In this document: piece by piece, positions 1,514-11,520 of the stretch
Layout: the number at the start of each line of letters is the position of its first letter
Numbering within the stretch: the first letter of the stretch is position 1
NCBI GenBank assembly: GCA_016208465.1
Contig: JACQXZ010000019.1
Coordinates: 1-42,138 of the forward strand
DNA: 42,138 nucleotides
Source of the DNA: Actinomycetota bacterium
GTDB taxonomy: Bacteria > Actinomycetota > Aquicultoria > JACQXZ01
Reading direction: 5' to 3'
Notes under the pieces: model-generated
What the model saw: the letters and a program-made list of their open reading frames with translations, nothing else
Databases searched by the model: none
What the model was told of the DNA's origin: nothing
Made by a program: the position numbers and the translations under genes

Positions 1514-1624
1514 TTACACGTACACAGGCTGATCGATAATTTCCTTCAAATTACTCCAAACCTTTCTTAAATTGTACCCGATACACATTAGCTTAAATTC
1601 TGTCTTAACTCTCCGATAGGCAAG
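1514..1624 (-). pseudogene. C-terminal tail of a DDE transposase (IS1182/IS5-like)
   Basis: About 36 codons ending at TAA 1514-1516. They read YRRVKTEFKLMCIGYNLRKV, then a short helix and QPVYV. The 'VKTEF.L.C..YNLR' pattern is the usual last segment of IS1182-type DDE transposases. An in-frame TAA at 1625-1627 closes the frame upstream and nothing else of the element is present. It marks the downstream edge of the cassette array and is probably a relic of an old insertion. Confidence 0.55.
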
Positions 1625-1758
1625 TTAGGTCGGAGGCGTTAGCCGGAGCCGTGAATGCTGCTGTTAAGTGAAGTTGGTCGCTCCCATATTCAGAGGTCGA
1701 CAGGACGTGACCCCTCAAATCCCTATAAGTGCTCTTAACGGTAACTGAATAATGCTTA

Positions 1759-2133
1759 TCATTTTTTGTTTTTTCTAACTATATTTTGAGGATTTTTAAA
1801 TTTTGAAAAAATTGCATTTGCACAAAGTTGAGTCAATGGCTCTCCGATAGCCGTCTTAAAATTAAAACCAAGTAGTTGCAATGTTTTCAAAGTATCTACG
1901 CCAATAAGTTCCTTGATTTGTTCATAGGTTCTTGTTTCCATCGGAGTCGTAGAACTCATTGTTTTAAATATTTCTAGAACTTTCCCAACTGTATCGTGTA
2001 GATGTGTAATATCTTCATCACTAATCTCGTACCGGTCTAATTCGCTTTTATACACTTGAGCAATTCTAATTGCTTCTTCTCGTTCTGAAAGTAGTTCATT
2101 AATAATTTCGTCATATTTATTCTTGATAATTTC
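1759..2133 (-). pseudogene. 3' part of an unknown gene split by an ISL3-family insertion
   Basis: This frame is open from the IS boundary to TGA at 1759-1761. It joins in frame, across one copy of the 8-bp target duplication, to the 5' part at 3509-3639. Removing the IS and one duplication restores a single 165-residue protein. The restored product is rich in charged helices (NKYDEIINELLSEREEA near residues 45-61) and I do not recognise its family. An internal ATG at 2055 could start a 98-residue peptide, but it has no clear Shine-Dalgarno. It overlapped the preceding 74-residue gene by 32 bases, so the two were probably translationally coupled in one cassette. Confidence 0.6.
2126..2133. repeat. 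8-bp target site duplication, left copy
   Basis: ATAATTTC immediately outside the left end of the IS. The same octamer is at 3509-3516 outside the right end. Eight bases is the usual duplication for ISL3-family elements, and removing one copy plus the IS restores an open frame. Confidence 0.85.
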
Positions 2134-3508
2134 GGTTCTTTCTTAAAAAAGTTGGAATCTTCTCGGATTTAAAAGCCCGCAATGTTGATGTATTTTTAGT
2201 CTGAAATAATCAATATCTTTATAACCATAAGCCATTCGTTTCAGTCGTTTAATTTTGTTGTTAAATCCTTCTGAATTCTCTTTTTAAACCAATTTAATAT
2301 ATACTCAGTTTTATCTTTTACACTTTCAGCTAATTCTTGAAATATCTTCAGTGAACTTTCTTCTGCCTGTTTTACCCAGCTTTTTATTTGTATTTCCGCC
2401 TGTTTGATATCTGCACTTTCATAAATTTGCAGAAAGCTTTCTTTTAACAGCATTGCCTGATATATTGGTTCATTTACTTCACATAATCTTTTTAATGTTA
2501 CAGCCTGTCTTTCTGTTAAATTGCTTCTTTTTTTTAATAATACAAATCTCTGTTTGCAGCCAGCTAATTCAACAAATTCTGCATCCTTAATATTTCTCGC
2601 TTTTTTTAATTCATCTTTTCTTACTTGATCTAATGCTCTATTAATTTTTTGTACAGCATGAAATCTATCCAATACTATAAGAGCTTTAACTGCATATTTT
2701 TTTGTTGAACTTATGTACGTTCTGGCTCCATCAAGCGCCACTGATTCTAAATTAGAACATTTGTTTCTGCCTAAAGATTCATAATATTTATCAAGCGCTT
2801 CGGCTTTTCTTCCTTTTGCGTTCCACGTGATAATTTTTTCATCTGCATCAATCACATTAGTAAGATATCTGTGATATTTCCTGTAACTGACCTCGTCTAC
2901 GCTTATATTTACTGATCCGGGTGTTGGCTCAAGTTTTACTTTTGATAATTCATCCAGAATCATTTTATCTATACGATATATCTTTTCATCATCCAGCCCT
3001 AAATACCAGCCGGCTTCTTTATTTGTCGTTATTGCTGTCAGCCTGTTGACTTCGTGCGCAAATCTCTTTGTTACTCGTTCCCATTTTCCTATCCAACTAA
3101 TTGCTTCAGTTTTTATTTTTGCACTCTCAGCACACTTATATTTTCTTTTAGGAATATGTAAAAATATTCGACGTTCTCCCATTCTTAGATCTTCAGCTAT
3201 TGTTATATCAGTACTGTGATAACCTTTTGTATGAATTTTTCCGCATTCACTGCATACTGCGTTATTATTTTTATATGGCGCTAATTTAATATGTATTTCT
3301 TTATCTGTTATTGAAACAATTTTTTCTACTTTATATTCTGGAATATTTAACAATTTGCTGATAGTATATTTGCATAACATCGACTGCCTCCTGGTTTGTT
3401 ATTTTTCTCAATTTAACTATACCAGATTACTTGGTAGTCGATGTTTCTATTTATTCCTTTATTTACAATGCTTTACAAGTTTTTATCCAACTTATTTACG
3501 AATGACCC
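2134..3508 (-). mobile_element. ISL3-family insertion sequence (1,375 bp)
   Basis: The ends were set from the 8-bp target duplication and imperfect terminal inverted repeats of about 25 bp. The left end begins GGTTCTTTCTTAAAAAAG and the right end, read inward, begins GGGTCATTCGTAAATAAG. Both continue with TTGGA. A single ISL3-type transposase gene fills the element. The insertion splits a small cassette gene. The transposase is frameshifted near its C-terminus, so this copy is probably inactive, although the ends and duplication are still crisp, implying a fairly recent arrival. Confidence 0.85.
2143..3380 (-). pseudogene. ISL3-family transposase, frameshifted near the C-terminus
   Basis: An N-terminal zinc-finger region (CSECGKIHTKGYH near residues 39-51) is followed by the DDE_Tnp_ISL3 domain. 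The catalytic region includes NISVDEVSYRKYH near residue 160 and LDRFHAVQKINRALDQVRKD near residue 238. The frame beginning at ATG 3380 stops early at 2241 after KDLTTKLND. Changing frame by one base in an A5 run near 2283 gives the expected ending, with EGFNNKIKRLKRMAYGYKD and CGLLNPRRFQLF, then TAA at 2143-2145. One lost A explains this. Sequencing error in the homopolymer is the alternative. Confidence 0.85.
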
Positions 3509-3516
3509 ATAATTTC
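3509..3516. repeat. 8-bp target site duplication, right copy
   Basis: ATAATTTC, identical to 2126-2133, immediately outside the right end of the IS. Confidence 0.85.
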
Positions 3517-3639
3517 CGTATCTTTTTCCAGTTTAAGTGCTTTAATTTTTGTGCTGACTGCAGATACCGTGCCTTTTACGGCTAAAGTTGTTAAATTAGT
3601 GCCCATCTCAGTTAGAACTGCCATAGTCGTATCGTTCAT
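3509..3639 (-). pseudogene. 5' part of the unknown gene split by the IS
   Basis: Starts at ATG 3639, preceded by AGGAGG at an 8-base spacing, the best ribosome binding site in this part of the window. It reads MNDTTMAVLTEMGTNLTTLA and continues through a lysine-rich helix to the target duplication. The frame then enters the IS and stops after GHS. The remaining codons lie at 1759-2133. The start overlaps the end of the 74-residue gene upstream. Function unknown. Confidence 0.65.
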
Positions 3640-3832
3640 CAATAATTCCTCCTAGCCTCTTTTTACTTAAATAATCAATTAATTCTTGAATATGATTTTT
3701 TAGATTGGGGTCAATGGTAAGATGGTACAAGTATCCAAGTCGATGCTGGAGATCGAATAAAGGAAGTATTCCAATCTCATTGCTCAATGAAGATGTGTGC
3801 AAAAAAGCATAGAAACCAATTTCTTGAATCAT
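3608..3832 (-). CDS. Small cassette protein of unknown function (74 aa)
   Basis: ATG at 3832 follows a TTAGGAGC Shine-Dalgarno at good spacing, and the stop (TGA, 3608-3610) overlaps the next gene's start by 32 bases. The product is a small soluble protein (MIQEIGFYAFLHTSSLSNEI...) with a C-terminal basic helix and a glycine-rich DERYDYGSSN tail. I do not recognise a family. Its layout, a short gene translationally coupled to a 165-residue partner within one integron-type cassette, resembles many two-gene stress or defence cassettes, but nothing in the sequence shows what it does. Confidence 0.6.
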   Translation of the reverse strand: MIQEIGFYAFLHTSSLSNEIGILPLFDLQHRLGYLYHLTIDPNLKNHIQELIDYLSKKRLGGIIDERYDYGSSN

Positions 3833-3854
3833 AAATGCTCCTAATTACTTATTT

Positions 3855-3897
3855 CATTCTGCGGTTTACAATGCGGCACTCGCAGAATGTTGTCTAA
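3855..3897. repeat. Cassette-leader palindrome (copy 1)
   Basis: The 9-bp arms CATTCTGCG (3855-3863) and CGCAGAATG (3881-3889) flank a TTTACAATGCGGCA centre and are followed by TTGTCTAAT. The centre and right arm match the leader of another cassette at 4919-4956 (ACAATGCGACATTCGCAGAA..GTCGCCTAAC). The match ends at the R'' core box, so the two cassettes share a beginning. Confidence 0.55.
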
Positions 3898-4125
3898 TTA
3901 TGTAAAAACGGCAACCGAAACGGAGCGTTTAGTAGCAAACCCTTTTTTGTGAAGTTTAATACGTTCAATTTCATGAAGTGTTTCTGCTTCAAGGTAACTC
4001 TCTCCACAGTGAGGACAGGTCACCACAGGAACATTTTCTATTACTAAAATGTTTTTGCCCTTTCCATATGTCCTGGTAACCCTGCGGATACGCACACCCT
4101 CTTTTCCACAAATTTCACATATCAT
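3898..4125 (-). CDS. YgiT/MqsA-type zinc-finger antitoxin
   Basis: A 75-residue protein with two CxxC pairs (CEIC near residue 3 and CPHC near residue 37). These are the zinc-binding knuckles of the YgiT-type (MqsA N-terminal) domain, followed by a YLEAETLHEIERI helix. Members pair with DUF4258 or MqsR-like toxins, and a DUF4258 gene lies directly upstream. The frame stays open to an ATG at 4167, but the ATG at 4125 has an AGAGGA Shine-Dalgarno and gives a typical N-terminus. The usual DNA-binding Xre half of full MqsA is absent, as in many short members. The toxin partner is frameshifted, so this antitoxin may be an orphan. Confidence 0.7.
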   Translation of the reverse strand: MICEICGKEGVRIRRVTRTYGKGKNILVIENVPVVTCPHCGESYLEAETLHEIERIKLHKKGFATKRSVSVAVFT

Positions 4126-4156
4126 CTGTTTTTTTCCTCTCATAGCCATATATACA

Positions 4157-4443
4157 TTATAACGCATACACAGTAATGATAACCAACTTGCCTGTTGTAC
4201 TTATTGTTGCAACAACCTCAACTTACTACCGGCAATGGTTTTTCCATTAATCCGATATTTCCATTCTGTAGTTACCTTGTCTTTTTGACGTGCTGTAATT
4301 TTACCTGTCAGAATACAACGCTCTACATCATATATGTTCAAGCAATCGTTGACCATTTCTTCTTCTGCATGAATTGTCATTACATATTGACGTCTGTGAA
4401 TTTTATCTCTCATTACTTTTAAGATTTTATCGAACATTACCAT
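4157..4443 (-). pseudogene. DUF4258 toxin, frameshifted
   Basis: The N-terminal part (IHAEEEMVNDCLNIYDVERC, then ILTGKITARQKDK) is the signature of DUF4258 proteins, BrnT/RelE-like small toxins usually followed by YgiT-type antitoxins. The frame stops early at 4201 after IAGSKLRLLQQ. Shifting one base near 4215-4225 restores the expected last strand, EVVATISTTGKLVIITVYAL, which ends at TAA 4157-4159, just upstream of the antitoxin. One inserted or deleted base has therefore removed the conserved C-terminal strand, and the toxin is probably inactive. Confidence 0.7.
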
Positions 4444-4473
4444 CCTTTGCCTTTTTAACCATCCCCCATTTCA

Positions 4474-4537
4474 GATAACGGTTTTGAGCTAAAAGAAACT
4501 AGAGGAGGGTTAACTCTAGTCTTTTGCGCCATGTTAG
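4474..4537. other. attC-type recombination site (site A)
   Basis: A degenerate R'' box (GATAAC) at 4474 and R' box (GTTAGCT) at the right end enclose nested stems. ACTAGAG (4498-4504) pairs with CTCTAGT (4514-4520), and the outer AAAAGA pairs with TCTTTT. The layout of core boxes around an imperfect palindrome of about 60 bp is that of an integron attC. It closes the cassette carrying the decayed ORF 4499-4685. Confidence 0.6.
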
Positions 4538-4685
4538 CTGCTGTTGCAAAAGTGATTCCTCAAGTTCTTTAACCCTCTGCTTTGCAACTAAATTATCATA
4601 AAATCTTACCAAAGATTCCCTGGTTTTTTTAGGTCAAATTGCACTGCAACTTTTTGCCCCTTTTCAATTTAACTCCTGTCATCAT
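4499..4685 (-). pseudogene. Decayed small ORF in a 180-bp cassette
   Basis: From ATG 4685 (MMTGVKLK) the reading becomes QKVAVQFDLKK after one frame change. After a second change in an A7 run near 4624 it becomes RESLVRFYDNLVAKQRVKEL then EESLLQQQLTWRKRLEL, ending at TAG 4499-4501 inside attC site A. The amphipathic coiled segment looks protein-like, but two frameshifts are needed. I do not recognise a family. Confidence 0.35.
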
Positions 4686-4716
4686 TTATGGTCTCATTCC
4701 CCCGCTCGCAATGAGC

Positions 4717-4793
4717 AGATAACGGTTTGTATTCACGAAGTCGCCGAAGGCGATTTCCCGAAGGGCAAGCGTAGCGTGAATACTTTGTTAGGC
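4717..4793. other. attC-type recombination site (site B)
   Basis: AGATAAC (4717-4723) and GTTAGGC (4787-4793) are R''/R' core boxes. A perfect 9-bp stem GTATTCACG (4729-4737) / CGTGAATAC (4775-4783) lies inside them, with smaller GC hairpins (TCGCCGAAGGCGA) in the centre. Size (77 bp) and architecture fit an integron attC. Confidence 0.75.
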
Positions 4794-4814
4794 GACGTTC
4801 TGGAACTTCGTGAA

Positions 4815-4930
4815 TACAAAATTGTAAAATGAAAATTGTAAATATTAAATTTTAAATTGTTCATTTTCTTTTTCCTTTATTTGACTTGCTTAATCATTCA
4901 TTTTACAATTTCCAATCTTCAATTTACAAT
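4815..4930. repeat. AT-rich inverted repeat filling a gene-less cassette
   Basis: The left half (ACAAAATTGTAAAATGAAAA...) and right half (CATTTTACAATTTCC...TTTACAATG) are imperfect inverted copies. This is the style of the other dispersed AT-rich repeats that border four-helix-bundle elements in this window. Together with the leader palindrome it makes up the whole cassette between attC sites B and C; no convincing gene is present. Confidence 0.5.
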
Positions 4931-4951
4931 GCGACATTCGCAGAATGTCGC
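4931..4951. repeat. Cassette-leader palindrome (copy 2)
   Basis: GCGACATTC (4931-4939), loop GCA, GAATGTCGC (4943-4951): perfect 9-bp stem directly abutting the R'' box of site C. It matches the leader at 3855-3897. Confidence 0.55.
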
Positions 4952-5018
4952 CTAACGTTCAAGCACAAACGAAGTCTTTTAAAGGATTTTGGCTTTAGCC
5001 GTTTGTGCTGTGTTATCT
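4950..5018. other. attC-type recombination site (site C)
   Basis: GCCTAAC (4950-4956, a perfect RYYYAAC box) and GTTATCT (5012-5018) flank a perfect 10-bp stem, AGCACAAACG (4962-4971) / CGTTTGTGCT (5000-5009). It closes the PIN toxin-antitoxin cassette, whose last gene ends inside the site. Confidence 0.8.
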
Positions 5019-5170
5019 GTAGTTGAACGCTTACGCCTTTTAAGCTGTTCCTGTAGCTTCTTTGATTTCTCCTTTATAAACCGAATCTGCTCTGTAACTG
5101 ACAGATCTTTAGTATCTTCATAATGTTTGTCCCTAATCTTTCGGACCATTTCAACTGATTTTACGACCAT
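4979..5170 (-). CDS. Putative antitoxin of the PIN-domain toxin
   Basis: A 63-residue basic, helical protein (MVVKSVEMVRKIRDKHYEDT, then a lysine-rich KEKSKKLQEQLKRRKR segment). It overlaps the PIN gene by 20 bases, the usual sign of a translationally coupled toxin-antitoxin pair. No family-specific DNA-binding motif is recognisable, so the role is inferred from position and size. The last residues are encoded inside attC site C, as is common for integron cassette genes. Gene order is toxin first, antitoxin second, the reverse of most VapBC loci. Confidence 0.6.
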   Translation of the reverse strand: MVVKSVEMVRKIRDKHYEDTKDLSVTEQIRFIKEKSKKLQEQLKRRKRSTTDNTAQTAKAKIL

Positions 5171-5624
5171 AAGTCGTCACCTCCCTTGGAGAATAAATTG
5201 AGATTGGCTTATATCCAATCTCAATATTGACAGCATTGAATTTCTGGATTTTATCGAATCTGACGATATGTTTGAAGTTCCAACTGACCAGTAAATCAGC
5301 TCCTGCTACTGCCGCAATAGCAATATGACGTGCATCGTTGCGGAATTTATGAGCTAAAATGCGATGCCTAAGGTATGCATCTGATAATTCAATTGCTTCA
5401 GATGTGAGTTCAATGATCTTGTTTGTACATTTCCTGAACTTTGCATAGATTTTTTTAACCTCATCCGGTGCATCCTGAATCTCAGCATCGGTAAGTTCAG
5501 AAAGTAACAGAGTAAAGACACCTGATTGGAAATCTTTTAAGAGTCCGTTAGACCATTCTTGAAATTCAGGGTCACAACAGCCTCCGATTACAGATGTGTC
5601 TACGTATATGCTCGTTTTCTTCAT
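5151..5624 (-). CDS. PIN-domain ribonuclease toxin
   Basis: A 157-residue PIN-domain protein. The acidic active-site set is visible: D9 in YVDTSVIGG, the ELTDAEI segment near residues 43-49, D97 in RNDARHIAIA, and the final SWNFKHI strand near residue 114. PIN toxins of the VapC type cleave RNA, and this subgroup is common in integron cassettes and genomic islands. It starts 34 bases after the preceding attC site and overlaps a small downstream gene that is the likely antitoxin. All expected core residues appear present. Confidence 0.8.
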   Translation of the reverse strand: MKKTSIYVDTSVIGGCCDPEFQEWSNGLLKDFQSGVFTLLLSELTDAEIQDAPDEVKKIYAKFRKCTNKIIELTSEAIELSDAYLRHRILAHKFRNDARHIAIAAVAGADLLVSWNFKHIVRFDKIQKFNAVNIEIGYKPISIYSPREVTTYGRKIS

Positions 5625-5657
5625 AATCTCATTTTACCATTTTCAGCGTTCAATTGC

Positions 5658-5746
5658 ATCTAACGTTTCCAGCATAAAAGAAGTTTTTGCGGAGCAAAAA
5701 TTTGGGTGAGTGCCGTAAGGCACGAACCTTTTATGCTGTGTTATAC
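5658..5746. other. attC-type recombination site (site D)
   Basis: ATCTAAC (5658-5664, exact RYYYAAC) and GTTATAC (5740-5746) enclose a perfect 11-bp stem, CAGCATAAAAG (5670-5680) / CTTTTATGCTG (5728-5738), with a GCCGTAAGGC hairpin between. This is the clearest attC in the window. It closes the radC-OLD-methylase cassette. Confidence 0.8.
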
Positions 5747-5757
5747 GCTATGCCGTG
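5740..5757. repeat. Inverted boundary repeat of the 5-kb cassette, left copy
   Basis: GTTATACGCTATGCCGTG is the inverted match (17 of 18) of CACGGCATTGCGTATAAC at 10803-10820. It starts with the R' core box of site D. Confidence 0.7.
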
Positions 5758-5835
5758 TCTTCTTTTTGTATTAAGAGCTGACTTTAATTTCATTACTAAT
5801 TTACCTCTATCAAAATTGCTAGCCAGGGGTGGTTT

Positions 5836-8358
5836 CTAAATAGCTCCTTCTTGTAGTCGCATTATCTCTTCTGTTGCTTTCCATTTTAACTCAAAAGCAT
5901 TCTGAACTTTTTTGCTGATGTCTGATCTCATTTTTTTGTCTTTGTGGATGGGTAAAAGTAATTCCTTCCACCTGTCCGATATATTAGGGAGTGTCGTTTC
6001 AATAAGAACTTTGTCATCTATTTGCCTTTGTACTATTGGGTTGGTTAATAGATAGATGAGATAGTAAGGGGTTATATCAAGGTCATTTCCTTTGTTCACC
6101 ACGCGAAATATCAAAATTTCCTTTGTTAATAACACCTTCTTATCGAATGGCGAAACAAGCGCAACACTTCCGATTCTATAACTTCCTCGCCTAACAAAAA
6201 GCAAATCGCCTATCTCTAAGTCTATACCCCGCCCCTTCTTTTTTAAATATATGTCCTCAGGTATTAAGGCAGTAGGATTCTTGTAAACTTCTAAACTAAT
6301 AATATCGGCTACTCTTATATAAGGTATTGTTCCCGTTCCCTTAAAAACTGCGTCTGGTGAGCCATGTCCTTCATAAACTTTTAGAACTCCCCTGTTACAT
6401 AATTGTCCCAAAGGGATCAATTCACAATTTTTCTCTTTTGCATATCGTTCAATATCCTTTACATAATCTCGCCAATAATACCGTGGAACTAAAACTCTCG
6501 GATTTATATCGCTGTATTGCATAGGAAATAACAAATGGGCAGGAATAAGTTTCTTGGAATTTCTATATTCTGTTAGTTTTTCTATTATATAAGGTATCTC
6601 ATCATCAATTTCATTCGTTCTTTCATTTGTTGTGGGGTTGATTTTATAAAGTGTCCTGCCAGTATGATCGTGCCCAACAGTTTTTGCAACTGAAAGAAGA
6701 ATTTTGCAATTGCTTTTAGATTCGCTTTTTTCTAAAACTACAATAACCGTCTTAGCGTTATTATGAGGCCTAAAGGTATCATGGGAGAGATCAGCTATGT
6801 GAAGTATTTTGTGTTGTTGTAAGAATTGTAATATATGCTCAGAGTTTTTGGCATGGAGATATGTTTCTGGCAATACAATAGCCATCCGTCCACCTGGTTT
6901 TAGTAGTTGTAAGCATCGCTCAATAAAAAGTATCTGTGGCACCTGCTTATCCAGAACCTTATCAGTCCTTTCCCATTTACCAGTTTTTTTGTCCATCTTC
7001 CATTTAAAACCAAGTTCGTATTTTTCAAGAAGCGATTTACTGGTGATGGGTATTTTTGAACCGAAGGGGGGATTAGTTAAGAGAACATCAAAAGAGCCAA
7101 GTTTAATTTTTTCTTGCTGGATTGGTGTCCATTCTTCGGGATCCACTAAGCTATCGGCACAGAATATGCCACCTCTGCCATCACCAACAATAGCCATATA
7201 GGCTTTACTCACCTTGGCAAGATCAAATTCTTTATCTATTCCATAAAAATTCCTTGAGGCAGTCTCCGTCTTCAAACTTCCAATCTTTCCTTCTGGAAGA
7301 TGTTTATATTTTTCTTCTATCTTTTTCCAAACATGCTCTAATGCAACAGTTAAAAACCCACCTGAGCCACAGGCAGGATCAACCACCTTTTCATTGGGCT
7401 TTGGATCAAGCATTTCAACACAAAGACGAACAATATTTCTTGGAGTGAAAAATTGCCCTTTTTCTCCTCGCAAGGCGGGACCAATAAAAACCTCAAAGGC
7501 ATCTCCTACAGCATCTTTATCTGTTTTCAAGAGGCTGTAATTCTGTAGCTGGCTGACAACATATGCGACAGATTTAGCATCTAACAATAGTTTTTCGTCT
7601 TCCTCAAAGACATCCCGGTATTCGGTCCTAACCTTTTCAAATAATCCCTTTATTCTCTCTGCAACTTTCTCATCTGATTCTTCCGCTCCTGCCTTAAACT
7701 TTAGATCTTTGTAATTGTGCATCTCATCATAAATTTTGCAGAATATTAGCCGAGTCATTTCTCCGCCAAGTCTCTCGGCTCTTGGAAGGTTGCTATTAGT
7801 ATAGAGATGATAGTAAATAACTTTGAAGATTGATTTTAGATTTTGAGCAGGTATCAGTTCATCGCCAGTTTTATATTTTCCTATTTCTTCCCAAGACTGC
7901 CCTTTCCTGGGGATATTTCTCCATTCAACAAGTTCGGGTGTGTAAGATGGTGGTTTTCTTATTGCTCTAACATAGACTATTTCGGTACCATTGAACCACA
8001 CGCCCCCTTCAGCGGGAGTCGGGTCAATATAACTTTTAAGTTGCTTTATTCCATCCTTTTTGTCTTTTCGCTTAGTCTCTACAATAAGGGAAATATTGTC
8101 GAAAGTTTTTTTATCATCTTTGAAAACTACAATATCCGCTGGTCCTATTTTAGTACTCCCCTTCTGGATATAGAATTCTGGGAAAGTCTGAATTTGTTCT
8201 TTTGAATACCCATACTCACTGAGAAGTCTCTGAGCAAAAACAATTTTTGCCTCTACTCTTTCTGGAGTTATTTTTACAAGCCTACCTGAAACAGGGTCTT
8301 TAACATACCCTTCTTTGGCTTCAAGTTCTTCAGTTGGTTTAAATTCTTTTTCAGGCAT
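5836..8358 (-). CDS. Single-chain restriction-modification enzyme (nuclease-like N-terminus, N6-adenine methylase, specificity region)
   Basis: 840 residues. Residues about 35-125 resemble the HSDR_N nuclease-like domain of type I R subunits, with D75 in PADIVVF and E94-T-K96 in IVETKRKD as a possible PD-(D/E)xK site. Residues about 170-560 are a HsdM-type N6-adenine methylase: SAM motif VDPACGSGGF near 326-335 and catalytic NPPF at 429-432. Residues about 640-830 resemble one HsdS target-recognition domain (IPYIRVADI, GDLLFVRRGS). Cleavage, methylation and recognition thus appear combined in one chain, as in type IIG enzymes. No helicase/translocase domain is seen. It is the last gene of a three-gene operon after the OLD nuclease, 11 bases away. 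It ends in TAG. Confidence 0.8.
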   Translation of the reverse strand: MPEKEFKPTEELEAKEGYVKDPVSGRLVKITPERVEAKIVFAQRLLSEYGYSKEQIQTFPEFYIQKGSTKIGPADIVVFKDDKKTFDNISLIVETKRKDKKDGIKQLKSYIDPTPAEGGVWFNGTEIVYVRAIRKPPSYTPELVEWRNIPRKGQSWEEIGKYKTGDELIPAQNLKSIFKVIYYHLYTNSNLPRAERLGGEMTRLIFCKIYDEMHNYKDLKFKAGAEESDEKVAERIKGLFEKVRTEYRDVFEEDEKLLLDAKSVAYVVSQLQNYSLLKTDKDAVGDAFEVFIGPALRGEKGQFFTPRNIVRLCVEMLDPKPNEKVVDPACGSGGFLTVALEHVWKKIEEKYKHLPEGKIGSLKTETASRNFYGIDKEFDLAKVSKAYMAIVGDGRGGIFCADSLVDPEEWTPIQQEKIKLGSFDVLLTNPPFGSKIPITSKSLLEKYELGFKWKMDKKTGKWERTDKVLDKQVPQILFIERCLQLLKPGGRMAIVLPETYLHAKNSEHILQFLQQHKILHIADLSHDTFRPHNNAKTVIVVLEKSESKSNCKILLSVAKTVGHDHTGRTLYKINPTTNERTNEIDDEIPYIIEKLTEYRNSKKLIPAHLLFPMQYSDINPRVLVPRYYWRDYVKDIERYAKEKNCELIPLGQLCNRGVLKVYEGHGSPDAVFKGTGTIPYIRVADIISLEVYKNPTALIPEDIYLKKKGRGIDLEIGDLLFVRRGSYRIGSVALVSPFDKKVLLTKEILIFRVVNKGNDLDITPYYLIYLLTNPIVQRQIDDKVLIETTLPNISDRWKELLLPIHKDKKMRSDISKKVQNAFELKWKATEEIMRLQEGAI

Positions 8359-8369
8359 ATTATTTTCCC

Positions 8370-10031
8370 CTACTGTTCAATTAAGTTTTCAACAATCTTT
8401 ATTAATTCATCAATTTTTTCTTGCCTTATTTTATTATTTCTATAATGCCACATTACGCTTAGTGGTTTTTTATATCTGTCAGTTACCTTTTCAATCCCCA
8501 AAAAGTCTTCTAACTCACCTTCGCTAAATGAGTGCAACTTCAATGTGAATTTATTTTTATTCTTCTCAATAAATGCATTTATTTTCTTATGCTTGTCATT
8601 ATTTGTATCACTATCAAATAAAACAGAATGCTCAATGCCAAGTCTATCAAATAAATTCATATACCGATGAATATCATATTTACCCGCCGAATTTAATATA
8701 TAGACTCTACGGCTTTTAAAATTTAGTTTTTTCTCCTTAACCAAACAATCTATTAAAGCCTTTTCACTTAAACCCTCACAGATAAGAACAATATCAGCAA
8801 AAAAGGAACAACACCTATCAGGGTCTAACCATAAACAATAGCGAATGGATTCTAATTCTATATCTTCTCCTGTGGCTTTGCCTTCTAAAATTTCTTTTAA
8901 TTCTTTATTTTCTTTTAAGATATCCTGCAGAATATTACTATCTGTTTGGTAAATAAAAGTTTCTGCTACATTTTTTGTAAGTTTCAAAAGAGACGGCATA
9001 TCATCTATATTTTTACTTACAAAATGTGAAGAGTGGGTTGATATTAGCACCTGCTGATTTTCTGCTGATGCAATTTCATCCAGACTTAAATTTAGAATTT
9101 CCTGTTGTGCTGGATGCAAGAATGCTTCTGGTTCTTCAAACAAAATTAGGGTAAAATCTGGAGAAAACCCTTTTTTTTCTTTCTTGACCGGCATTTCTTT
9201 ATATTTTGTGGATAATTTTATTAGTGTATAAATAAGATGTCGTTGAAGTCCTTGACCAAAGGAACTTATATCCAATCGCTCTTTTAGATATTTTTCCTCT
9301 AAATAGTGGCTTACTAAATTTTTTATAATTTCTTCTGGTTTAATTTCATTGATTTCCACACCAAAAGATACATCCCAATCTTTAATTTCTTTATTAACAT
9401 CATCAATGAAATTTTGTATCGAAACCCCATCTTTAAAGGATTCAGTTTTAAATTTCTCATTAAAATCTATGAATGATTTACTCAAAGAATCAAAAGAAGA
9501 GCTATTTTTTGCAACTTTCTTTACCACAAAATTTAGTGAATCTCTAAAAGCAGAAGGACCACTTAACTTAGTATATTCATCTACCTTAGCCACTTCTGGA
9601 ATGTAAATCACATCTCCTAACTTTGCCTCTGATATATTTTTTGCACCATAGAAAAGATTATTTGAAAGATTGCCTCTCTCATATCCATAAATGTTACTTT
9701 GATTAGACTTTACTCGGTCTGATTGGGAAGATTTCAAATATTTTCTTACTTTTAGAGAATTGTTATCTTGCTTATACTCATCTTTCAAATTCTCAAATTC
9801 ATCATCGGTCAGATGGAACTCGATTTCAATCCAGATTTCTTGGTCATCAATTTTAAACTTAGGAATATCTTCTTTATCAAATTTTTCTTTCTCATAGAAA
9901 ATCCTCAAAGCGTCAATTACATTTGTCTTTCCTGAATTATTTGCTCCTATTAGCAATGAATAATCACCTAAATTAAATGTTTGCTCCTTGATAGTCCTGA
10001 AATTATGAAGAGCGATTGTTTTGATCTTCAT
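8370..10031 (-). CDS. OLD-family ATP-dependent nuclease (AAA ATPase + TOPRIM)
   Basis: 553 residues. The N-terminus has an SMC/RecF-like ATPase fold with Walker A GANNSGKT at 29-36, a Walker B LILFEEPEAFLHP near residue 300 and a following STHSSHF segment. The C-terminal third carries a TOPRIM nuclease domain: LICEGLSEK, LNSAGK, LFDSDTN. OLD proteins cleave DNA and act in phage defence (for example P2 Old and GajA of Gabija). No UvrD-like GajB partner is present; the neighbours are radC and a methylase. An AGGAGG ribosome binding site lies inside the end of radC, so expression is coupled. Confidence 0.85.
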   Translation of the reverse strand: MKIKTIALHNFRTIKEQTFNLGDYSLLIGANNSGKTNVIDALRIFYEKEKFDKEDIPKFKIDDQEIWIEIEFHLTDDEFENLKDEYKQDNNSLKVRKYLKSSQSDRVKSNQSNIYGYERGNLSNNLFYGAKNISEAKLGDVIYIPEVAKVDEYTKLSGPSAFRDSLNFVVKKVAKNSSSFDSLSKSFIDFNEKFKTESFKDGVSIQNFIDDVNKEIKDWDVSFGVEINEIKPEEIIKNLVSHYLEEKYLKERLDISSFGQGLQRHLIYTLIKLSTKYKEMPVKKEKKGFSPDFTLILFEEPEAFLHPAQQEILNLSLDEIASAENQQVLISTHSSHFVSKNIDDMPSLLKLTKNVAETFIYQTDSNILQDILKENKELKEILEGKATGEDIELESIRYCLWLDPDRCCSFFADIVLICEGLSEKALIDCLVKEKKLNFKSRRVYILNSAGKYDIHRYMNLFDRLGIEHSVLFDSDTNNDKHKKINAFIEKNKNKFTLKLHSFSEGELEDFLGIEKVTDRYKKPLSVMWHYRNNKIRQEKIDELIKIVENLIEQ

Positions 10032-10037
10032 ACTTTT

Positions 10038-10742
10038 CTATTCCTCCTCAATAAGCCCTTCATTGAAAAAACTAAAGTAATTGTTATCACCGATGATGAT
10101 ATGGTCTAAAATTCGTATTCCCACAAGTTCGCAAGCAGAAATGATACGGTTGGTTATATCTATGTCATCTTGGCTTGGTTGTGGTTCACCGCTTGGGTGA
10201 TTATGGATAAGCACCAAAGCCGCTGCTGATTCTGTTACAGCCTCTTTTATAATTTCCCTTGGATGAACAACGCTTTTAGTAAGTGTTCCTTCAGAAATAG
10301 TAACATCTTTGATGATTTTATTTTTACCGTCAAGTAAAACTGCTTTAAAAATCTCTTTTTTCATATCTCTCATATAGGGTGTAAAATGATCAACTAAATC
10401 CTTGCTGGTTGTAATTTTAATCTTGGTCAAACTTTTTTCTTTAAGAAATCTTTTGCCTACTTCTGTTGCAGATTTTATTTGTGCAATTTTAGCAATGCCT
10501 AAACCCTTTCTTTTAAGTTCAACAAAACTCTTTGAATCAATATTTCTAAATGTTCCAAATTCATTAATTAATTCCCGCGCCATATCTACAGCACTTTTGC
10601 CGCTTGAGCCAACTCTTAAGAGAATAGCAAGAAGTTCTGTATCTGAAAGTTTATCAGCCCCCAGTTTTAATAGTTTTTCCCTTGGTCGCTCATCTTCTGG
10701 CCAATTTACTATTGCCCTTGGGTATTTTAACTTTTTTGTCAT
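10038..10742 (-). CDS. radC: RadC/UPF0758 family JAB-domain protein
   Basis: 234 residues. The N-terminal helix-hairpin-helix region (about 10-90; LSDTELLAILLRVG) is followed by a JAB/MPN metal-binding domain with the H-x-H...S-x2-D signature (H180, H182, S190, D193 in LIHNHPSGEPQPSQDD). Most RadC proteins are of unknown biochemical role and are enriched in mobile and defence islands. It is the first gene of the 5-kb cassette. The OLD nuclease starts 6 bases after its TAG stop and, by chance, in the same frame. The start at ATG 10742 has an AAGG ribosome binding site. Confidence 0.85.
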   Translation of the reverse strand: MTKKLKYPRAIVNWPEDERPREKLLKLGADKLSDTELLAILLRVGSSGKSAVDMARELINEFGTFRNIDSKSFVELKRKGLGIAKIAQIKSATEVGKRFLKEKSLTKIKITTSKDLVDHFTPYMRDMKKEIFKAVLLDGKNKIIKDVTISEGTLTKSVVHPREIIKEAVTESAAALVLIHNHPSGEPQPSQDDIDITNRIISACELVGIRILDHIIIGDNNYFSFFNEGLIEEE

Positions 10743-10802
10743 AATGAAACCTTATTCTACTTTATATTTAAAGTCAGCCCGTTTTTTATTACTTTCATTA
10801 GG

Positions 10803-10820
10803 CACGGCATTGCGTATAAC
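10803..10820. repeat. Inverted boundary repeat of the 5-kb cassette, right copy
   Basis: CACGGCATTGCGTATAAC matches the inverted left copy at 5740-5757 in 17 of 18 positions. The two copies bracket radC, the OLD gene and the methylase exactly. Confidence 0.7.
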
Positions 10821-10854
10821 GGCGAACGCGCAACACACCCGAACTTGGTTATAT
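10814..10854. other. Candidate attI or attI/cassette junction
   Basis: GTATAAC (10814-10820) and GTTATAT (10848-10854) are core-box-like. The sequence between them lacks the paired stem of the attC sites, as expected for an attI. It lies between the recombinase remnant and the first cassette, and the cassette boundary repeat ends in its left box. Confidence 0.4.
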
Positions 10855-10873
10855 CCGAATAAGTTCGGATATA
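10850..10873. repeat. Perfect hairpin between recombinase and first cassette
   Basis: TATATCCGAA (10850-10859), loop TAAG, TTCGGATATA (10864-10873): a perfect 10-bp stem without a following T-run. It may be a recombinase-binding or regulatory structure. Confidence 0.55.
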
Positions 10874-10895
10874 CTAATTCTGACTGAACAGTCAA
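10868..10895 (-). promoter_or_regulatory. Candidate cassette promoter (Pc-like) with overlapping palindrome
   Basis: On the minus strand TTGACT (10895-10890) and TATATC (10873-10868) are separated by 16 bases and point into the cassette array. The -35 box overlaps a perfect palindrome, TGACTG-AA-CAGTCA (10881-10894), that could be an operator. The -10 box is only a partial match to consensus. Confidence 0.35.
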
Positions 10896-10920
10896 CAAGC
10901 CCTTCTTTTGACAAATTTTG

Positions 10921-11388
10921 TCAACTACTACTCTCTTCTTTAATATTTAAACTATCTAATGGACTCTTTATCTTACCAAGACTTTTTGTGCTTACATGGG
11001 TATAAACCTCTGTTGTTTTACTGTCTTTATGTCCAAGCAGTTCTTGTATGTATCTTAATCCGTGTCTCTTTCCAACAAGTGAGTCGCGAAACTGTGCCTT
11101 AGTGTATGTACTGAAACATCTTTTTTGATACCTGCCTTGTTGCAGGCATGTTCCAAAACCTTTTCGACTGTGATAGTCCTTTACGTCGTTGTCATTAATA
11201 TCTGATGAACTCTTACCTGTAAAATTCAAGAAATTTCTGTGGTCGGTATCTGGAAAACCCCAGTGTCTTTCCAAAGGATGCCATTTATAACCAGAAATAG
11301 TTTTAATCTTTGCAATGCAAGAAGAACTATAAGGAAAAGTAATTATTATATTACCCGAGGTGTCTTTGCCTACATTAATCTCTGTCAT
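10921..11388 (-). pseudogene. Broken tyrosine recombinase / possible integron integrase
   Basis: The start (ATG 11388, GGGAGG ribosome binding site) encodes an N-terminal arm domain (ITFPYSSSCIAKIKTISGYK, then WHPLERHWGFPDTD). The core-binding domain, expected to be about 200 residues, is gone. A second frame then encodes [20 protein letters not shown] and SFATHLLE. After a further shift the first frame encodes [20 protein letters not shown] followed by THVSTKSLGKIKSPLDSL. The catalytic box II residues (H-x-x-R, GH, Y) are recognisable, but the first arginine motif is deleted and two frameshifts are present. It is the only recombinase next to the attC array, so it is the natural candidate for its integrase. 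It could instead be an unrelated XerC-like enzyme: the integron-specific extra helix cannot be assessed. Confidence 0.7.
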
Positions 11389-11520
11389 AGAATAAACCTC
11401 CCGATCAGAGCATTGGCGGCAAGTTAAGTAAAATTAAATCACATTTATTAGGTATTATCAATGAAGCGCATGACGAATCTGAGGTAAGATGCCTCGGCTA
11501 TAACCTATCGCCTCTTGCCC

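Follow-up and report, generated by a model that had tools for sequence, protein, structure and literature searches.

A decaying array of hairpin-site cassettes in an Aquicultoria genome, very probably of an integron-like platform distinct from IntI integrons

The stretch of DNA analysed here, referred to as the window, is the entire 42,138-nt contig JACQXZ010000019.1 (C11) of an Actinomycetota bacterium of the Aquicultoria lineage JACQXZ01 (assembly GCA_016208465.1; G000 below), whose genome measures 1.75 Mb and is 89.5% complete. The window carries an array of gene cassettes separated by hairpin sites, with a broken tyrosine recombinase gene at one end, which an earlier note on the sequence had read as a decaying chromosomal integron. 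Most of that description stands: the array is chromosomal and decaying, its recombinase is broken and toxin–antitoxin pairs are among its cassettes. The part that falls away is its status as a canonical sedentary integron. The region is very probably the decaying array of an integron-like platform distinct from the integrons that use the integrase IntI, and all the parts of such a platform are present in it: sites of the type described by our covariance model R1, an attI-like palindrome and a recombinase of HARP type, with the recombinase broken and one site (site 1) weak.

The cassette array and its recombinase remnant

The cassette genes lie on the minus strand, and the sites are written on the plus (bottom) strand. 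In the direction of the genes, the order is recombinase remnant, attI-like palindrome, a 23-nt stretch, cassette 1, site 4, cassette 2, site 3, cassette 3, site 2, cassette 4, site 1, cassette 5, a decayed cassette end and an ISL3 transposase. The contig is shared with trpS, efp, aroB, aroC and other genes; since these remaining genes are ordinary core genes, the element is chromosomal.

The recombinase remnant (10921–11388, minus strand), already recognised in the earlier note, retains a HARP-like N-terminal domain, a fragment of the core-binding domain and the C-terminal catalytic part. Most of the middle has been lost, including the region near patch III where IntI carries its characteristic insertion, and the reading frame is shifted. 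With these internal losses and frameshifts the enzyme is inactive, and a search of G000 gave no intact copy. Intact homologues occur at other loci (L261, L252, L253, L255, L260 and L262; L-numbers denote compared loci or stretches). Directly after the recombinase stop lies the attI-like site (10844–10874, minus strand), composed of the palindrome GTATATCCGAAcTTaTTCGGATATAA and a 5-nt junction, ACCAAG/TT, with the break before TT. The 23 nt between this junction and the start of the first cassette (10821–10843) have no counterpart in other attI-like sites and are perhaps the scar of a deleted cassette.

Cassette 1 (5744–10820, minus strand) encodes RadC (10038–10742), an AAA/OLD-like TOPRIM ATPase (8370–10031) and a MADS2-like DNA methylase (5836–8358). 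Its ends, GTTATACGC(T/A)ATGCCGTG, are complementary over 18 nt, and R1 found no site inside it. With its complementary ends, this 5-kb stretch is a fifth cassette, which the earlier note had overlooked, together with the attI-like palindrome and the absence of any cassette feature between 1600 and ~3860. Cassette 2 (5016–5660, minus strand) holds a PIN (VapC-like) toxin (5151–5624) and a small partner (4979–5170), and its ends are complementary. Cassette 3 (4791–4952, minus strand) has complementary ends, GTTAGGCGAC(G/A)TTCTG, and cassette 4 (4537–4719, minus strand) is decayed, with partly complementary ends; they correspond to the 163-nt and 184-nt units of the array, both gene-less. Cassette 5 (3898–4475, minus strand) carries DUF4258 (4201–4443) and a YgiT-type antitoxin (3898–4167). 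Beyond it, the repeat aatgcggcactcgcagaatgttgtctaatta (3866–3895) is a decayed cassette end that resembles the end of cassette 3 at 4927–4956; it is the last trace of the array. The earlier note's description of the minus-strand units, from the PIN pair to the DUF4258/YgiT pair, thus agrees with what is found.

The four sites all lie on the plus strand. Site 4 (5661–5743), the hairpin site of cassette 1, scores 97.4 bits with R1 (E 3e-23), site 3 (4953–5015) 42.9 bits (E 7e-9) and site 2 (4720–4790) 35.8 bits (E 5e-7). Sites 2, 3 and 4 are at the places given in the earlier note and have perfect stems of 9, 10 and 11 bp within TAAC...GTTA, of which there were none in 30 dinucleotide shuffles of 12 kb. 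Exact RYYYAAC boxes are present in two sites, as GCCTAAC in site 3 and ATCTAAC in site 4. The strand of site 4 also carries the pattern TAACGTT...GTGTTA, with one match and none in 100 shuffles. All four sites separate cassette-like units, as had been proposed; site 1 (4476–4536) is nevertheless degenerate, at 13.9 bits (E 0.29) against 35.8–97.4 bits for the others, with the expected position, order and strand.

Between 1600 and ~3860 no cassette feature was detected; this stretch holds the ISL3-family transposase (2241–3380), immediately past the far end of the array. A dispersed repeat, CACACCCCTGC(A/G)CCCCTCTTTTTAGAGGGG, occurs at ~295–330 of the window and at ~9785–9860 of L038, in unrelated places of the genome. 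A degenerate site of the R1 family stands alone, without an array, on another contig of G000 (L267:3333–3404, C3; 35.4 bits).

The site family, its recombinase and shared cassettes

A search pattern of 23 fixed bases, taken from sites 3 and 4, was run on the genome collection. The hairpin it describes, TAACGTTYCCAGCATA...TATGCTGTGTTA, matched 87 loci, 57 of them in Bacteria and 30 in Archaea, which represent at least 29 named phyla; by our own estimate, about 0.2 would be expected by chance. Positions left open in the pattern are conserved too, and there are two subtypes with covarying stems (AU:28/UA:26 at columns 17–88; AU:28/CG:21 at columns 19–84). The covariance model R1 was built from 61 of the pattern loci, none of them from the window. 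It matches further sites close to the first ones, which shows that the sites form arrays, and it finds sites in 12 of 149 relatives, the host genome counted. Rfam gave no match. In viral contigs a loose form of the pattern occurs at 36 places, all of which lack a paired stem and were taken as chance.

If a cassette circularises as in an integron, its end pairs with its own start, and the complementary ends should be specific to each unit. This is what the units look like: starts complement the end of their own unit but not those of other units, a score of at least 9 being reached in 18 of 43 cases against 1.3%. Position 11 of the outer stem bears a polarity mark: on the bottom strand, 35 of the 43 units have a G.T wobble there, and only two are fully paired at this position. 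Of 59 junction hairpins, 58 are more stable when folded from the bottom strand than from the top strand, and the largest open reading frame runs in gene direction in 54 of 57 cassettes. The cargo, examined in 72 cassette proteins, includes DNA methylases, type II restriction enzymes (ThaI, TdeIII, MjaI, Bpu10I), NucS, GmrSD and HEPN and Abi_C domains, alongside an ion channel, an aquaporin and an AMP-binding enzyme.

Intact homologues of the remnant have an N-terminal HARP-like domain (a weak Pfam match), a core-binding domain and a catalytic domain with the usual R..K..H-R..H..Y residues. The insertion of ∼30 residues that marks IntI is present in the IntI proteins of contigs C41 and C12 of the host genome and of L013, and absent from the recombinases of L158, L134, L157 and L016. 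With the integron-integrase model TIGR02249 (cut-off 265 bits) the intact platform recombinases score 200–239 bits and the remnant 45, whereas the two true IntIs of the host genome reach 441 and 413. The XerA_Arch cut-off (220 bits) is passed by platform recombinases with 245, 227 and 257 bits. In a maximum-likelihood tree, IntI forms one clade (100/100) that excludes the platform recombinases, which occupy a neighbouring branch (84/81); a split supported at 100/100 divides the two, with a few others, from Xer-like proteins. A tree joining the platform recombinases to IntI alone was rejected (p-AU 0.0003), and the exact branching is uncertain because a few other insertion-less recombinases fall in the same neighbourhood of the tree. 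An AlphaFold model (pTM 0.50) is too loose for claims about the fold, with XerA and IntI4 alike among its top matches.

Recombinase and sites keep company. Homologues of the remnant lie upstream of the sites and codirectional with them on nearly all compared contigs that have both, and among the 149 relatives sites occur in four of the five genomes with the specific recombinase against eight of the 144 without it (p = 1e-4). Internal losses in the recombinase, with attI and array retained, are frequent (L266 at 1275–1700, L268, L269, L083 and L084). In some of the shortened genes a single open frame runs from the N-terminal domain straight into the C-terminal catalytic part.

The attI-like site consists of two palindromes of the form GTATAtCCGAAC-n-GTTCGGATATA, with a CCAAATTGG-like spacer between them, directly after the recombinase stop; the second palindrome ends ∼5 nt before GTTANNNGNAAT, the start of the first cassette. 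The pair is found after the recombinase, with the same spacing to GTTA, in about 20 loci. Its arms vary from locus to locus yet stay complementary (CGAAC/GTTCG, CGACA/TGTCG, CGCA/TGCG). In the window the second palindrome is kept at the correct spacing. There is therefore, as in integrons, an attI beside the recombinase at the start of the first cassette, with palindromes of different sequence.

Single cassettes are shared between distant hosts; the genomes searched for such sharing came from outside the host's genus. One cassette of a Bacillota locus (L135) and of an ANME-2 archaeon (L136) is 92.7% identical over 1,076 nt. It lies directly at the attI-like site in L135, a metagenome-assembled genome (MAG), and within the array in L136, with both breakpoints precisely at TAAC. 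Further pairs join two archaeal phyla (L100/L125, 90.5%), a bacterium and an archaeon, with the cassette at the attI position in both (L101/L108, 80%), and Aminicenantota and Bacteroidota (L097/L154, 94.8%). When all pairs are pooled, 35 of 107 alignment ends fall no more than 40 nt from the boundary of a site; for randomly placed positions the figure is 4%. Judged from these alignments, cassettes are shared between phyla cassette-exactly, which is the gain and exchange of cassettes expected of integrons. The contigs that hold L097 and L135 are long (403 kb and 158 kb).

Full-length relatives of the recombinase, with 37–43% identity, are carried by plasmids of cultured bacteria: Chryseobacterium, Rufibacter tibetensis and Pontibacter kalidii. 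In Rufibacter and Pontibacter the recombinase is followed by small codirectional genes with TAAC...CGTTAG hairpins. The sites on these Bacteroidota plasmids are divergent and mostly below the R1 threshold, so that membership in the same system is only likely. The plasmid stretches compared were L277:8650–15850, L278:8641–15100, L276 and L279, with arrays of small hypothetical genes in L277 and L278.

Weighing of explanations and proposed mechanism

Could the window simply hold a canonical sedentary integron in decay, with ordinary attC sites and the remnant of a broken IntI? The overall layout is alike, the top NCBIfam match of the remnant is the integron-integrase model (at the 45 bits given above), and the host genome does contain two intact canonical IntI integrons (L037:1485–2462 on C41 and L038:8433–9665 on C12). 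The latter have canonical attC sites and toxin–antitoxin or methylase cassettes; the DnaB helicase at L037:5525–7315 appears to hold an intein-like insertion (CVTGETIVVL...HN). The earlier note's reading of the window sites as canonical attC fails against a covariance model of canonical attC, built from a 16-site subset aligned on a hand-given structure. Canonical sites score 20–71 bits with it (20–32 for those outside the training set), the window sites a near-noise 12.0, 9.2, 7.2 and 6.6 bits (E 0.33–4.3), and nine platform loci yield nothing. Conversely, R1 has no match in the IntI loci of the host genome (the C41 and C12 arrays) or of relatives. Canonical sites from L037, L038, relatives and class 1 integrons have an unpaired base in the inner stem (GCCG-T-CCGCTG), whereas the inner stem of the window family is perfect. 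The intact homologues lack the IntI insertion, stay below the 265-bit cut-off and fall outside the IntI clade (100/100); their HARP-like domain and their codirectional orientation with the array also argue against this explanation, which is improbable. By integrase domain, score, clade and attC model, the system is not a member of the IntI family.

Slightly less probable again is that the sites are used in trans by the host's canonical IntIs, or by several recombinases, with the neighbouring recombinase being incidental. Two intact IntI genes are at hand (C41 and C12), and IntI is known to accept a range of attC sites, among them eight of the nine archaeal sites on which it was tried (PMC9668308). 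Such use in trans would not lead one to expect that the C41 and C12 arrays are devoid of R1-type sites and the platform arrays of canonical ones, or that elsewhere the specific recombinase lies upstream, codirectional and with an attI-like site of its own. That the sites are dispersed hairpin repeats like REP or MITE elements, inserted between genes, is very improbable; the strong conservation of the hairpin sequence would fit, but insertion would not yield complementarity, unit by unit, between the flanks of successive copies, for which a within-unit excess is found, and it leaves the cassette-exact breakpoints between phyla and the attI-like junction unexplained.

Several observations weigh against a separate platform with a dedicated recombinase. 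Site 1 is weak, and most loci come from metagenome bins, so that some of the cross-domain pairs could be binning errors. A recombinase match is found in 35 of 50 site-bearing genomes at a loose threshold (E ≤ 1e-30) and in fewer for the specific clade, and the assemblies of many genomes with sites contain no full-length recombinase. At L265 (contig C115 of genome G020, a relative of the host) the recombinase is a related one that lacks the HARP-like domain and points away from an R1-type array, with the attI-like site at its 5' side: a divergent arrangement that is the canonical integron geometry. At L097 a fragment of a recombinase does not share the direction of the nearest site. These two exceptions indicate that the geometry is not uniform and that both arrangements exist.

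For the platform itself, the following mechanism is proposed. Where the platform is intact, a recombinase with a HARP-like domain and without the IntI insertion is transcribed towards the array, with the attI-like double palindrome behind its stop, ending a few bases before GTTA. Each cassette carries a single hairpin site at its 3' end. In the circular cassette, the unit-specific ends would pair to form an outer stem of 12–20 bp; next to it come an asymmetric bulge, with GTTYCC facing GT, and then a perfect inner stem of 10–11 bp. The site would fold as single-stranded DNA in the cell, and the neighbouring recombinase probably joins this hairpin, most likely of the bottom strand, with the double-stranded attI beside GTTA; recombination at GTTA would then add cassettes in one orientation. 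With the recombinase dead and no intact copy found in the genome, the window array is probably frozen.

Beyond the window, it is likely, with somewhat less confidence than for the array itself, that the system represents a second class of hairpin-cassette platform, closely related to IntI integrons but without the IntI helix. It would move cassettes between domains and be widespread among uncultured anaerobic and subsurface prokaryotes of both; its divergent form on plasmids of cultured Bacteroidota makes it amenable to testing at the bench. If so, cassette recombination at hairpin sites would be older than, or separate from, a feature held to be essential for integrons, and the choice of strand would depend on the conserved wobble and the asymmetric bulge rather than on extra-helical bases. 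A working platform without IntI and without attC sites bearing such bases would change the definition of integrons. It would also explain cassette arrays that current tools probably miss, and would supply a concrete route of gene flow among bacterial phyla and archaea, often for defence genes (methylases, restriction enzymes, HEPN and abortive-infection domains). No description of the system was found in the open-access literature, subscription papers and preprints lying outside the search; some sites of the family may stand unrecognised among published archaeal attC sites.

Comparison with integrons and other known systems

Two features define integrons: the integrase IntI, and attC sites with extra-helical bases that IntI recognises. 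In the IntI–attC structure of MacDonald et al. (2006), it is reportedly the IntI-specific part that holds these bases, and in the platform the loss of extra-helical bases would accompany that of the IntI-specific helix. The insertion has been described as essential for integron function (PMC8138268) and is what surveys use to recognise IntI (PMC9668308). Concerning the cultured carriers, the IntegronFinder 2.0 survey names Salinibacter as the sole complete integron in Bacteroidetes proper (PMC9024848).

With IntI integrons the platform has in common a tyrosine recombinase, an adjacent attI, tandem cassettes of one or two genes in one orientation, hairpin sites with R''/R' cores and the exchange of cassettes across domains. 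In archaeal integrons (Ghaly et al. 2022, PMC9668308) attI likewise lies immediately downstream of the integrase gene. The platform differs in a recombinase that lacks the IntI-specific insertion, has a HARP-like N-terminal domain and is codirectional with the array; in an attI made of a palindrome pair; and in sites that have no extra-helical base in the inner stem, a long, unit-specific outer stem with a conserved wobble, and no match to the canonical attC model.

The Xer recombinases (XerA, XerC/D) and their dif sites are a second point of reference. The platform recombinases pass the XerA_Arch model, the nearest solved structure is XerA, and the attI palindromes recall a dif-type core; in contrast with Xer, they adjoin cassette arrays instead of a single chromosomal dif and stand apart from the Xer-like group in the tree. 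Clusters of attC sites lacking an integrase (CALIN) resemble the window in that its array has no working integrase, but the sites of the window are not canonical attC, and both attI and the remnant of the recombinase are present.

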